From: Arenimonas caeni
GTDB taxonomy: Bacteria; Pseudomonadota; Gammaproteobacteria; Xanthomonadales; Xanthomonadaceae
Length of the DNA stretch: 64,000 bases
NCBI RefSeq assembly: GCF_003024235.1
Contig: NZ_KZ679088.1
Span: 1 to 64,000, forward strand
Direction: 5' to 3'
Made by a program: the position numbers and the translations under genes. Shown here one piece after another: positions 38,896-43,388 of this stretch. The notes under the pieces are model-generated. The model was not told where the DNA came from. It did not search any database and saw only the letters and a program-made list of their open reading frames with translations. Position 1 is the stretch's first letter. Each line of letters opens with the position of its first letter.

Positions 38896-41112
38896 TCAGC
38901 GCGGCCGGCCCAGCTCGAGCAGGAAGATGCCCTCGCCGCCCTCGCGCAGGCCGTAGCCGAGCTGCAGCGGGCCGAGCCAGGAGTCGAAGCCGAAATACAG
39001 GCTGCCGTGCAGCTCGCCCTCGCCGTCGTCGATGTCCTGGCCGCGGCCCCAGGTGCGCCCGTACTCGAGCGTGCCGCCCAGCAGGGCCGGCCGGCCCAGC
39101 ACCCGCCCGAGCTCCCAGGTGTAGCCGCCGTAGGCCAGGGCGTAGTTCTCCGCCAGCCGTTCGTTGGGCCGGTAGCCGGCGAAGCGGGTCAGGCCGCCGA
39201 GCCGGAACAGGCCGGGCAGGCCGACCGGATCGTCGCTGCTGGCGTGGTAGCGCAGGCCGCCGAAGCCGGAGTGCCGGCCGATCGCGCCGGCACCGACCAG
39301 GTCGAAGTTGAACTGCTCGTAGTCGGTGTCGGCCCCGAAGCCGCGGCGCGAGGCCACCACCGACGCCGTCGCCTGCAGGCCCTTGCGGGGCAGGTAGCTC
39401 GAGTCGATGCGGTCGTAGGTGAAGGCCAGCTCGACCTCGCCCTGGTCCCAGCCCAGTCCGTCGAAGGCCGGGTCGCCCACGTCCAGGCGGATCTCGCCGC
39501 TGTGCCGGCGCAGGCCGAGGGTGGCGGCGCCGAAATTGCCGTACTCGCGCCCAAGCAACAGCTCGAGGCCGTAGTTGGGCACCCGGTAGTTCGCCAGGCG
39601 TTCGCCGCCCGCGTCGAACAGGCTGAAGCGCGGGCTTTCGTGGCTGCCCTGGGCGCTCAGGAACCACTCGCCCTTGCGCCCGAGCGGCTGGTAGTAGTCC
39701 AGCAGCAGGCTCGGTTCGTCGCCCAGCTGCAGGAGGCCGCGCAGTTCGCCGCCGAGCGGGTTCACCGGCGCGCGCAACACGCCGGCGCGCAGGTTGACGA
39801 AGAAGTCGCCCTGGAAATCCGAATACAGGCTCAGTCCGGTTTCCAGGTAGTTCGGGCCGTGCCGGTGCGGCAGCACCGTCACCAGCACGCCCTTGCGGCC
39901 CTGGTCTTCGATCAGCTCGTAGGTGACCTGCTCGAGCGTGGCCAGCCCGTGGATTGCCCGCAGGTTGCGCTCGAGCCGGTCGGCGTCGAACGGCTGGCCG
40001 GGCGCGATGTCGATGCGGCTGAGCAGGAAGGTGTCGTCGTAGCGGCTGCGGTTGTCCAGGCGGACGAAGTGCACCACCGGCGGGTCGGGCGAGGGCGCGG
40101 TGCGCGCCGCCAGGTGCGCCTGGTGCGTCGCGGCGTCCAGCCCGAGCGCCGCCAGCCGCGGCCGCACCGGATCCAGGCCGGACTCGCCGATGCGCAGCGC
40201 CTGCTCGAACTTGTCGAAATCGGCCGTGCCCACGTCGGCGCCCAGCGCCGGCCGCACCAGCACGTCGGCCGGCCCGAGCGTGCGCACCTGCGCCTCGGTG
40301 CCGCCGACGGTCATGAAGCCGCTGATCTGGTCGATGATCTGCAGCAGCCCGGCCGATTCGTCGAGCTTCGCCAGCGGCGTGCCCACGTCCACGGCGATCA
40401 CGATGTCGGCGCCCATCGCGCGCACCACGTCCACCGGCAGCTGGTTGGCCAGGCCGCCGTCCACCAGCACGCGCTCGCCCACCACCACCGGCTTGAACAC
40501 GCCGGGGATCGACAGGCTGGCGCGCATGGCCTGGGCCAGGTTGCCCTCGCCGATCACCACCGCCTGGCCGGTGTTGAGGTCGGTGGCGACGGCGCGGTAG
40601 GGAATGGGCAAGCGGTCGAAGTCGGTTTCGAAGCCCACCGGTTGGGTGAGGCGCTCGAGCAGCAGCATGACGCGCTGGCCCGAGAGCACGCCGGCCGGCA
40701 GCTTGATGCCGGTGTTGCCGATGCCGGGCTTGGCCGACAGCAGCGCCAGGTCGTCGTCACGCTTGCGGCGGAAGCTGCGCTCGGGGCGGTCGGTGCGGTC
40801 GCGGAAGACCGCCGACCAGTCCAGCGTGCGCATCTCGCGCTCGATCGTGTCCGCATCCATGCCCGAGGCGTACAGGCCGCCGACGATCGCGCCCATCGAC
40901 GTGCCTGCGATGCAGTCCACCGGCACGCGCAGGCGCTCGAGTTCGCGCAGCACCGCCACGTGGGCGAAACCGCGGGCGCCGCCGCCGCCCAGCACCAGGC
41001 CGATGCGCGGACGCTCGGGATCGCCGCCGGCGGCGCGGCAGGCCGGCACGTCTTCGGCGGCCACCGGCATGGCCAGGGCCAACACGAGCAGGGTTGAAAC
41101 GAACAGGCGCAT
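38896..41112 (-). CDS. PlpD-like patatin phospholipase with type Vd barrel
   Basis: A 738-residue autotransporter. A signal peptide ends at about residue 19. The patatin domain has the oxyanion-hole motif GGGGARGFAH, the nucleophile elbow GTSMG near residue 70, and the catalytic Asp in VDGGLANQLPVD. A POTRA-like segment links to a C-terminal BamA/Omp85-type barrel that ends in FLLELGRPR. Order and length match PlpD of Pseudomonas aeruginosa, which releases its phospholipase to the surface. It stands alone on the minus strand. Confidence 0.88.
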   Translation of the reverse strand: MRLFVSTLLVLALAMPVAAEDVPACRAAGGDPERPRIGLVLGGGGARGFAHVAVLRELERLRVPVDCIAGTSMGAIVGGLYASGMDADTIEREMRTLDWSAVFRDRTDRPERSFRRKRDDDLALLSAKPGIGNTGIKLPAGVLSGQRVMLLLERLTQPVGFETDFDRLPIPYRAVATDLNTGQAVVIGEGNLAQAMRASLSIPGVFKPVVVGERVLVDGGLANQLPVDVVRAMGADIVIAVDVGTPLAKLDESAGLLQIIDQISGFMTVGGTEAQVRTLGPADVLVRPALGADVGTADFDKFEQALRIGESGLDPVRPRLAALGLDAATHQAHLAARTAPSPDPPVVHFVRLDNRSRYDDTFLLSRIDIAPGQPFDADRLERNLRAIHGLATLEQVTYELIEDQGRKGVLVTVLPHRHGPNYLETGLSLYSDFQGDFFVNLRAGVLRAPVNPLGGELRGLLQLGDEPSLLLDYYQPLGRKGEWFLSAQGSHESPRFSLFDAGGERLANYRVPNYGLELLLGREYGNFGAATLGLRRHSGEIRLDVGDPAFDGLGWDQGEVELAFTYDRIDSSYLPRKGLQATASVVASRRGFGADTDYEQFNFDLVGAGAIGRHSGFGGLRYHASSDDPVGLPGLFRLGGLTRFAGYRPNERLAENYALAYGGYTWELGRVLGRPALLGGTLEYGRTWGRGQDIDDGEGELHGSLYFGFDSWLGPLQLGYGLREGGEGIFLLELGRPR

Positions 41113-41174: not shown

Positions 41175-42050
41175 TCATTCGGCGAGAACCGAGCGCGGGT
41201 CGCGTCCGGCCGGGCAGTGGTCGAAGGTGACCGGCACGCCGTGGGCTTCGAGCACGGCGGCCAGCTGGCGCTGGCGCATCTGGAAACGCTCGAAGGCGCG
41301 CGCAAGGCGCCCGGCGTCGGTGTCGGCGGGGGCGAAGCCACCCTCGGCCCAGGCGTCGATGTCGAGCAGGGCCATGCGCACACCGCCGTTCTCGTACACC
41401 GCCAGCGGCTCGGGCGGCGCGTCGAGCCACTGCACCGCGCCGGGCGCGAGCAGCGCGGCTTCGAGCAGCGGCCACATCGGCGCCAGGCCCACGTGCTCGT
41501 ACTGCATGGCCATCATCGCGGCCAGGTCGTTGAGGGTGAGCAGGCGTGCGTGCTCCACCGGCACGGCGAAGCCCGACTGTGCCAGCAGCGCGGTGTCGGC
41601 GCCGGCCATGCCGGTATCGAGCAGCACCTGTTCGAGCCGCTCGCCCACCGGCGCGACGCTGGCGGGGTCGCCGCGCAGCAGCAGCGGCAGCAGCTTGAGC
41701 GGGCCGCCGGCGAACTCGGCCGAGGGGCGCATCGATTCCGGCAGGCCGGCGTCGTCGGCGCCGAAACCGACCACGCGGCCGCCGGCGGCGCCGGGGGCGC
41801 GCGCAACCAGCCGCTCGAGTTCGGCATGCACCGGCCAGCCCGGGCGCAGCAGTTCCACCGGGTCGAACAGGCCCGCCACCAGGCCCAGGTCCAGGTCGGC
41901 CGCCTCGGGCACCAGCTTCGCCAGGTCGCGCGCCACCAGGCCCGCCAGTTCGCCCGCGGTGGCCACGTCCAGCGCGGATTTGCCCGGCGTCGCGCCGGGT
42001 GCGAGTTCGAGCGCCAGGGCGGCAAGGACGCTCAGTTCGGGCTTGGACAT
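41175..42050 (-). CDS. Hypothetical cytoplasmic protein
   Basis: I do not recognise this 291-residue protein. It has no signal peptide or membrane helix and is acidic, Leu/Ala-rich and mostly helical. Stretches such as HVGLAPMWPLLEAALL and VTFDHCPAGRDPRSVLAE look conserved, but no catalytic motif is apparent. Its start is 60 bases from the divergent fadI start, and a perfect palindrome sits between, so the two are probably regulated together. This hints at a role near fatty-acid oxidation. Confidence 0.7.
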   Translation of the reverse strand: MSKPELSVLAALALELAPGATPGKSALDVATAGELAGLVARDLAKLVPEAADLDLGLVAGLFDPVELLRPGWPVHAELERLVARAPGAAGGRVVGFGADDAGLPESMRPSAEFAGGPLKLLPLLLRGDPASVAPVGERLEQVLLDTGMAGADTALLAQSGFAVPVEHARLLTLNDLAAMMAMQYEHVGLAPMWPLLEAALLAPGAVQWLDAPPEPLAVYENGGVRMALLDIDAWAEGGFAPADTDAGRLARAFERFQMRQRQLAAVLEAHGVPVTFDHCPAGRDPRSVLAE

Positions 42051-42070
42051 ACGGTGGCGTTCGGTGTCGG

Positions 42071-42091
42071 GGTATGATCGCCAATCATACC
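42071..42091. promoter_or_regulatory. Palindromic operator overlapping divergent promoters
   Basis: GGTATGAT, CGCCA, ATCATACC: a perfect 8-base inverted repeat with a 5-base spacer. Each arm contains TATGAT, a good -10 hexamer, reading outward on each strand toward fadI and toward the divergent unknown gene. It fits a repressor site that controls both genes. No convincing -35 boxes are seen. Confidence 0.65.
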
Positions 42092-42110
42092 TGCCACGCC
42101 GGAGCGCCCG

Positions 42111-43388
42111 ATGTCGCCTTCCCGTCGCGTCGCCATCCTCGGCGGCGTCCGCATCCCCTTCGTACGCAACAACACCGCCTACCACGACGTGGGCAACCTG
42201 GGCATGTCGATCAAGGCCCTGGGCGCCCTGGTCGAGAAGTTCGGCCTGCACGGCGAGCAGCTCGGCGAAGTGGCCATGGGCGCGGTGCTCAAGCACAGCA
42301 GCGACTGGAACATCGGCCGCGAGGCCACGCTCAGCTCCGGCCTGTCGCCGGCCACGCCGGGCATCACGATGCAGCGCGCCTGCGGCACCTCGCTCGACAC
42401 CGTGGTCACCGTGGCCAACAAGATCGCGCTCGGCCAGATCGAGGCCGGCATCGGTGGCGGCTCCGACACCACCTCGGACGTGCCGATCGCGGTGAACAAG
42501 CGCCTGCGCCGCCGCCTGCTCGACGCCAACATGGCGCGCAGCTTCGGCGCCCGGCTCAAGGCCTTCAAGGGCTTCCGCTTCAAGGAGCTGACGCCCGAAT
42601 TCCCCGGCGTCGGCGAGCCGCGCACCGGCAAGTCGATGGGCGAGCACTGCGAGATGATGGCCAAGGAATGGGGCATCACCCGCGAGGCCCAGGACCAGCT
42701 GGCCTACGAGTCGCACACCAAGGCCGCCATGGCCTACGAGCGCGGGTTCTTCAAGGACCTGGTGGTGCCGTTCCGGGGCGTCGAGCGCGACAACATCCTG
42801 CGTCCCGACACCACCATCGAAAAGCTCGCCACGCTCAAGCCCGCCTTCGACAAGACCTCGGGCAAGGGCACGCTGACCGCCGGCAACTCCACCCCGCTCA
42901 CCGACGGCGCCTCGGCGGCGCTGCTGGCCAGCGAGGAATGGGCCGCGGCGCATGGCCTGGAAGTGCAGGCCTATCTGGTCGATGCCCAGGTGGCGGCGGT
43001 CGATTTCGTGCACGGCGAGGGCCTGCTGATGGCGCCGGCCTGGGCCGTGGCGCAGCTGCTCGCGCGCAACAAGCTCAGGCTGCAGGACTTCGACTTCTAC
43101 GAGATCCACGAAGCCTTCGCCGCGCAGGTGCTGTGCACGCTCAAGGCCTGGGAAGACCCGGTCTTCTGCAAGGAAAAGCTCGGCCTCGACGCGCCGCTGG
43201 GCGCGATCGACCGCGAGAAGCTCAACGTCGTCGGCAGTTCGCTGGCCGTCGGCCACCCGTTCGCGGCCACCGGCGCGCGCATCGTCGCCACCGCCGCCAA
43301 GCTGCTAAGGGAAAAGGGCTCGGGCCGCGCGCTGATCTCGATCTGCACCGCCGGCGGCATGGGCGTCGCCGCCATCGTCGAGCGCTGA
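42111..43388 (+). CDS. fadI: Acetyl-CoA C-acyltransferase (3-ketoacyl-CoA thiolase), FadI-like
   Basis: A 425-residue thiolase that cleaves 3-ketoacyl-CoA in beta-oxidation. The acyl-carrying Cys91 lies in MQRACGTSLD, the catalytic His in EIHEAFAAQV and GHPFAATGAR, and the second Cys in ICTAGGMG. The length and the N-terminal RVAILGGVRIPF fit the FadI group. There is no fadJ-like gene in the window, so it is a solitary thiolase. A family-2 hairpin follows immediately. Confidence 0.9.
   Translation: MSPSRRVAILGGVRIPFVRNNTAYHDVGNLGMSIKALGALVEKFGLHGEQLGEVAMGAVLKHSSDWNIGREATLSSGLSPATPGITMQRACGTSLDTVVTVANKIALGQIEAGIGGGSDTTSDVPIAVNKRLRRRLLDANMARSFGARLKAFKGFRFKELTPEFPGVGEPRTGKSMGEHCEMMAKEWGITREAQDQLAYESHTKAAMAYERGFFKDLVVPFRGVERDNILRPDTTIEKLATLKPAFDKTSGKGTLTAGNSTPLTDGASAALLASEEWAAAHGLEVQAYLVDAQVAAVDFVHGEGLLMAPAWAVAQLLARNKLRLQDFDFYEIHEAFAAQVLCTLKAWEDPVFCKEKLGLDAPLGAIDREKLNVVGSSLAVGHPFAATGARIVATAAKLLREKGSGRALISICTAGGMGVAAIVER

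Follow-up and report, generated by a model that had tools for sequence, protein, structure and literature searches.

Salmonella and E. coli commonly carry bidirectional promoters, defined by start sites on opposite strands at a distance of 7-25 bp (PMC10268837, PMC12825309). Such promoters are described as ubiquitous in E. coli, with strong activation one way able to repress the other (PMC12825309, PMC10268837), although five E. coli bidirectional promoters are reported to have had too little basal transcription to compete (PMC12825309). The commonest class (PMC10268837) has starts 18 bp apart and a single shared, near-symmetric -10 element, and other arrangements occur.

The locus considered here belongs to Arenimonas caeni and was analysed within a stretch of 64,000 nucleotides, hereafter the window. 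It resembles the bidirectional promoters described by Warman, Wade and Grainger in its predicted opposite starts, which fall within 7-25 bp of each other between divergent genes, in the symmetry of the -10 region as the likely cause, and in a possible competition for RNA polymerase. Unlike the commonest class set out there, with its one shared -10 and starts 18 bp apart, this locus displays two -10 hexamers and predicted starts about 8 bp apart. Palindromic operators of the TetR type offer a second likeness, in that a perfect dyad covers both promoters proposed for two divergent genes; unlike such operators, the locus has a variable arm spacing, a symmetry that is lost in relatives, no regulator-like gene seen nearby and no regulon found. 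Several bacterial mRNAs, such as ompA, carry stem-loops at their 5' terminus. The thiolase leader of other genera resembles these in having a stem that begins roughly 6 nt from where the mRNA is predicted to start, but this stem was not seen in the window species, and Rfam searches of five relatives' loci gave no match at E<=0.1. The features of the locus, with their strand and basis, are as follows.

41175-42050, minus strand: gene of an orphan protein of 291 residues, conserved in the family (profile and structure searches)
42071-42091, no strand: perfect 8+5+8 inverted repeat GGTATGAT-CGCCA-ATCATACC (sequence and 21-mer searches)
42073-42078, plus strand: TATGAT, candidate -10 box for the thiolase, 32 nt to the start codon
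42084-42089, minus strand: TATGAT, proposed -10 box of the orphan gene, 33 nt to the start codon
42084-42091, plus strand: right arm ATCATACC, in the same place as element ATTATGCC of other genera (comparison of loci)
42084-42087, plus strand: zone in which thiolase transcription is predicted to start, placed by -10 spacing alone
42075-42078, minus strand: predicted transcription start zone of the orphan gene, placed by -10 spacing alone
42101-42104, plus strand: GGAG, probable ribosome-binding site for the thiolase (from the sequence)
42111-43388, plus strand: acetyl-CoA C-acetyltransferase, a FadI-like thiolase of 425 residues (profile searches)

The divergent gap and its two genes

The start codons of the thiolase gene (plus strand) and of the divergent orphan gene (minus strand) are separated by 60 bp (42051-42110). 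The palindrome lies at the centre of this gap, with its left arm GGTATGAT at 42071-42078, the loop CGCCA at 42079-42083 and the right arm ATCATACC at 42084-42091. A scan of positions 41950-42210 returned neither terminators nor consensus promoters. An element resembling ATACG-N4-6-GTTTGG, found at 42049-42064, recurs near the orphan-gene start in several genera (e.g. loci L078, L094 and L109); the -35 of the thiolase promoter could lie within it, or it could be an independent site.

The product of the plus-strand gene passes the NCBIfam model NF006740, 'acetyl-CoA C-acetyltransferase', with 711.9 bits for a cut-off of 539, and stays under the cut-offs of the FadI models (TIGR02446, 356.3 against 711.55; NF006516, 428.2 against 560). 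No protein of the whole genome exceeded the TIGR02446 cut-off, and the best FadI match of the genome is still this 425-residue thiolase. The name fadI, under which the gene had been introduced, is therefore a loose one: it holds for a thiolase that is the closest to FadI in this genome, and falls short of both FadI cut-offs. In some genomes from beyond the family, with the two genes at separate places, a frame that has a FadJ-like end by eye precedes the thiolase gene (L291, L293, L297, L303 and L309), hinting at a beta-oxidation operon.

Searches with the orphan protein gave few leads. None of 39 family members had a Pfam match at E<=0.01, the window's own protein having one sub-threshold match to DUF6417 (E 0.14), and there was no NCBIfam match, no PADLOC match and no PDB sequence match at E<=1. 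Its structure is predicted with confidence (pLDDT 93.6), and a structure search with this model produced no clear fold match in the PDB; its best scores (Foldseek E 0.063, Z 4.4) neither identify a fold for the model nor establish a new one. Alignment of the 39 members revealed 20 invariant residues. The next gene beyond the orphan gene, on the same strand (38896-41112, minus), appears patatin-like by eye and is possibly a lipid enzyme included in the same transcript.

Two facing -10 boxes or an operator

We consider it reasonably probable that two overlapping, face-to-face -10 boxes, one for each gene, make up the palindrome and form a compact bidirectional promoter. The original prediction had described a perfect palindrome in a 60-base divergent gap, with a TATGAT in each arm facing its own gene, and the sequence confirmed this layout. 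A -10 hexamer is present on each strand, reading TATGAT both ways, and the two are separate words (42073-42078 and 42084-42089), an arrangement distinct from one shared near-symmetric -10 element. The dyad is perfect because both boxes read TATGAT in the clade of the window. Each box would face the other at 32-33 nt from its own start codon, and the predicted start sites, about 8 bp apart, would each be located within the -10 box of the opposite gene. With the starts so placed, RNA polymerase could open the DNA in only a single direction at once, and a gene that fires strongly could hold down its neighbour. Comparison of loci shows where the hexamers lie, which way they point and that they stay -10-like in relatives when symmetry or spacing changes; that both boxes act as promoters, where transcription starts and that the two directions interfere is what we infer.

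Relatives of the same genus provide the main evidence. Twelve of the 27 genomes searched in the genus contain the core TATGAT-N2-8-ATCATA, and 11 carry it at this locus; its off-locus occurrences were limited to two places (G016 C34 and G007 C244). Four more genus genomes have one arm changed: the left arm reads TACAAT in L074 and TATCAT in L072 and L122, each opposite a right TATGAT, and the right arm reads TAGAAT in L068, opposite a left TATGAT. Both arms of these asymmetric loci are still -10-like. The base adjacent to the hexamer is asymmetric in L065-L067, L069-L071, L073 and L121, where the perfect dyad consists of the two hexamers only. Arm spacing also differs, being 5 nt in the window and L064 (support 99/97), 3 nt in L072 and L122 (support 98/88) and 4 nt in the remaining palindrome rows, on a tree of the relatives with 9 of its 22 inner branches strongly supported. 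A spacing that varies, and a symmetry that breaks while -10-like words are kept, thus argue for two face-to-face -10 boxes rather than for the operator of a rigid dimer. The claim that each arm serves as a -10-like box for its own gene is supported in the same way, by words that stay -10-like in relatives lacking the symmetry.

Evidence for -35 elements is uneven between the strands. On the plus strand of other genera, 33 of the 53 loci had TTGG.. at 17-18 nt as their best candidate, and the best -35 match averaged 3.58 of 6 positions, compared with 2.53 at random positions. The minus strand of these genera averaged 2.45 of 6, not above the random 2.53; the orphan-gene promoter is therefore predicted from its hexamer. 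The best candidates of the window match 2 of 6 on either strand, which is the weak point of the double-promoter reading, and those of other Arenimonas rows 2-4 of 6 on the plus strand and 2-3 on the minus strand. Across 221 tandem gaps of this genome, 14 chosen -10-like words upstream of genes occurred 27 times in sense and 3 times in antisense orientation.

A dimeric regulator, for instance of the TetR type, binding the dyad and shutting both promoters, was the explanation first put forward, and the comparative data have turned against it. We now regard this mechanism as unlikely, with some weight left to it by a perfect dyad that coincides exactly with the two proposed -10 boxes and by genome G016, in which another, longer-armed TATGAT-N4-ATCATA dyad stands between TetR-like and divergent hydrolase-like genes identified by eye, the classic arrangement of an operator. 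TetR regulators of fatty-acid metabolism do exist in Xanthomonas, but direct binding is reported, in the part of the source used here, at promoters other than fadI (PMC6637906). Half-site spacing is not fixed among orthologues, taking values of 3, 4 and 5 nt by clade; the dyad is not kept in L068, L072, L074 and L122 while the -10-like words stay; and no regulator-like ORF was seen by eye between the two genes in family relatives. Nor does the site recur as a shared operator might. A 21-mer search of the window allowing up to 3 mismatches gave one match (0.02 expected), and the whole genome contained no second copy at up to 2 mismatches and, at 3, one place besides the site itself. The copies anticipated near other fad or lipid genes were accordingly absent at up to 2 mismatches.

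The G016 dyad itself, TTATATGAT-AGGC-ATCATATAA (L285, 1501-1516; G016 C34:70473-70488), situated between the TetR-like gene and the divergent hydrolase-like gene, looks in its sequence like a true TetR operator. The adjacent TetR was rejected as a general regulator: at E<=1e-40 a single genome of the 27 in the genus contained it, and it therefore does not explain the dyad at this locus in the ten other genomes that carry one.

The ATTATGCC element and the leader hairpin in other genera

Beyond Arenimonas, the right arm has a counterpart in a conserved element, ATTATGCC, and this element, together with the leader hairpin of other genera, is the more unusual part of the locus. The palindrome is most likely an ordinary kind of feature, with a few conserved oddities nearby. 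A total of 171 gap regions was gathered (the window, then 60, 80 and 30 from successive sets, with some genomes represented twice). A pattern combining a -10-like left word with a near-fixed right word was positive in 127 of them, reduced to 61 non-redundant rows; the 44 negative regions included gene-inserted loci, loci outside the family and several of Arenimonas. Thirty of the 171 regions and 16 of the 61 rows had been fetched by the motif TACACT-N2-9-ATTATGCC, and L072 and L122 were among the rows dropped as near-duplicates. Since the pattern demands these words and 16 of 61 rows were fetched by the motif, the tallies of the element arise partly by construction. With that proviso, the left word was TACACT in 41 rows, TATGAT in 7, TAAACT in 7, TAGACT in 5 and TACAAT in one, and the right element was ATTATGCC in 50 rows and ATCATACC in 8, with three others found once each; the spacer between them ranged from 1 to 9 nt. 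The left word was TACACT, TAAACT or TAGACT in 53 non-redundant loci of other genera, and the minus-strand -10 word of the orphan gene was CATAAT in 51 of these 53, a count limited by the pattern.

Among 297 family genomes, 150 contained TACACT-N2-9-ATTATGCC exactly once and 147 lacked it, the window's genus among the latter. Its reversed control had no match in the 297 genomes. All 30 copies fetched were located between the thiolase and orphan genes. By comparison, 20 stretches taken from 10 genomes upstream of separated genes contained neither ATTATGCC nor ATCATACC. In the same 20 stretches, GGCATGAT had four matches upstream of the thiolase start, inside a frame that looked FadJ-like by eye.

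In many genera (e.g. L103, L109 and L113), a GC-rich stem begins at the sixth base of ATTATGCC in the thiolase leader. Leader folds had a mean z of -1.53 over 52 loci, 35 of them below -1, compared with a mean of -0.22 and 8 below -1 in a coding control (n=61). This hairpin was not seen in the palindrome clade, where eight rows ending in ACC, seven of them from Arenimonas, had a mean z of 0.03 with two below -1; the window has no such stem either (z 0.58 over 34 nt). Covariation was assessed on 33 leaders hand-chosen from 50 with ATTATGCC, an alignment biased towards the hairpin because most of the leaders chosen were those whose fold showed the stem. Within this selection, double-changed cells numbered 21, where shuffles gave 11.1 (sd 2.1), and pairing reached 87.9 percent of cells (82.2 in shuffles), with U-A, C-G and U-G occurring at the same pairs. 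Two of five measures, namely pairs with a double change and pair types, did not exceed the shuffles, and four rows with short loops look misaligned. A DNA dyad is a less probable source of the leader covariation. A covariance-model search of 60 family genomes placed both genes at 19 of the 20 best-scoring loci, some of which are model members or close to them; weaker matches were scattered, and the best match in the window's genome (E 0.0013) was not at this locus.

These observations raise a further explanation, in which the right arm alone has been kept for its function: descended from ATTATGCC, it would have become half of a dyad when the left -10 changed to TATGAT, and ATTATGCC would open the thiolase transcript and form the 5' stem of its leader. 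Such a descent agrees with a motif found once per genome in half the family set, free of control matches and confined in 30 of 30 cases to this gap, and with a covarying hairpin that begins at the GCC of ATTATGCC. We nevertheless hold it to be quite doubtful, as the palindrome clade keeps the right arm though the hairpin is not seen there, and the spacer to the left box spans 1 to 9 nt, so that the distance between ATTATGCC and the predicted start is not constant. If the right arm of other genera was retained for the leader hairpin rather than as a -10, this could count against a double promoter. Only tentatively, and as an improbable history, the right arm may be viewed as what is left of a cis-regulatory leader, so far undescribed, in the Lysobacteraceae, in which the locus-specific ATTATGCC combines the orphan-gene -10 with the start of the covarying thiolase 5' hairpin, Arenimonas having traded that hairpin for a symmetric double promoter. 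Our literature search found no paper on the Arenimonas thiolase promoter or the Lysobacteraceae thiolase leader.

Frequency of the dyad and distribution of the gene pair

The background of such symmetries was estimated from an 864-kb sample of the same genome, with genes called by a simple codon-usage finder (744 genes). Perfect 8-bp dyads with a loop of 3-8 nt were present in 9 of 90 divergent gaps of 30-400 bp, compared with a mean of 2.8 and a maximum of 5 over 30 rounds of shuffled gaps; as a class, dyads of this length are not rare in divergent gaps. TATGAT itself is rare, with 10 copies in the 864 kb, eight of them intergenic; four copies are located 10-80 nt upstream of a gene, and two of these four are the palindrome's own, a rarity that counts against the promoter reading. 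Chance symmetry in an AT-rich patch of the 60-bp gap fits the frequency of 8+8 dyads and a P of 0.011 that applies to this gap taken alone, uncorrected for the number of gaps, but it is already disfavoured, and we judge it very improbable, by the dyad core itself, which 11 of the 27 genomes in the genus share at this locus.

The gene pair was searched in 100 genomes, 60 from the family Lysobacteraceae, including that of the window, and 40 from outside, with a thiolase threshold of E<=1e-100. The thiolase was detected in 58 of the 60 family genomes, the orphan protein in 56 and both in 55; the pair was divergent in all 55, at distances of 42 to 1157 bp (all gaps read), and these pairs span 31 of the 34 family genera searched. 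The exceptions were one genome with the orphan protein alone and three with the thiolase alone, several of them incomplete. Outside the family, 22 of 40 genomes contained both genes, within about 2.2 kb of each other in 7 of the 22; six had the orphan protein without a thiolase match and eight the thiolase without the orphan protein, and the copy in G088 lies at a contig end. The association of the two genes is strong within the family and loose beyond it.

Additional ORFs were noticed by eye between the two genes of some relatives. A methyltransferase-like (SAM-dependent) ORF on the thiolase strand occurs in L063, L065, L066, L067, L074, L076 and L087, and an acyltransferase-like ORF in L075, L077, L114, L118 and L120. 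None of the intervening ORFs seen by eye in family relatives was regulator-like.

The original prediction also implicated the orphan protein in fatty-acid metabolism. Its constant position, divergent from a thiolase gene in 55 of 55 family genomes, speaks for this part of the claim; outside the family, however, the genes are mostly apart (7 of 22 close) and each is also found alone, and the tie of the orphan protein to fatty-acid metabolism is therefore weak. The orphan family could be probed for a role beside a thiolase.

The locus calls for caution before every dyad in a promoter is read as an operator, as two facing -10 boxes can produce the same symmetry, and the spacing of the arms and the broken symmetry of relatives are what separate a double promoter from an operator here. 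Over 31 genera of one family, it constitutes a natural series in which the same divergent pair is retained while the start signals slide, overlap and separate, a series that would be useful for tests of promoter interference.
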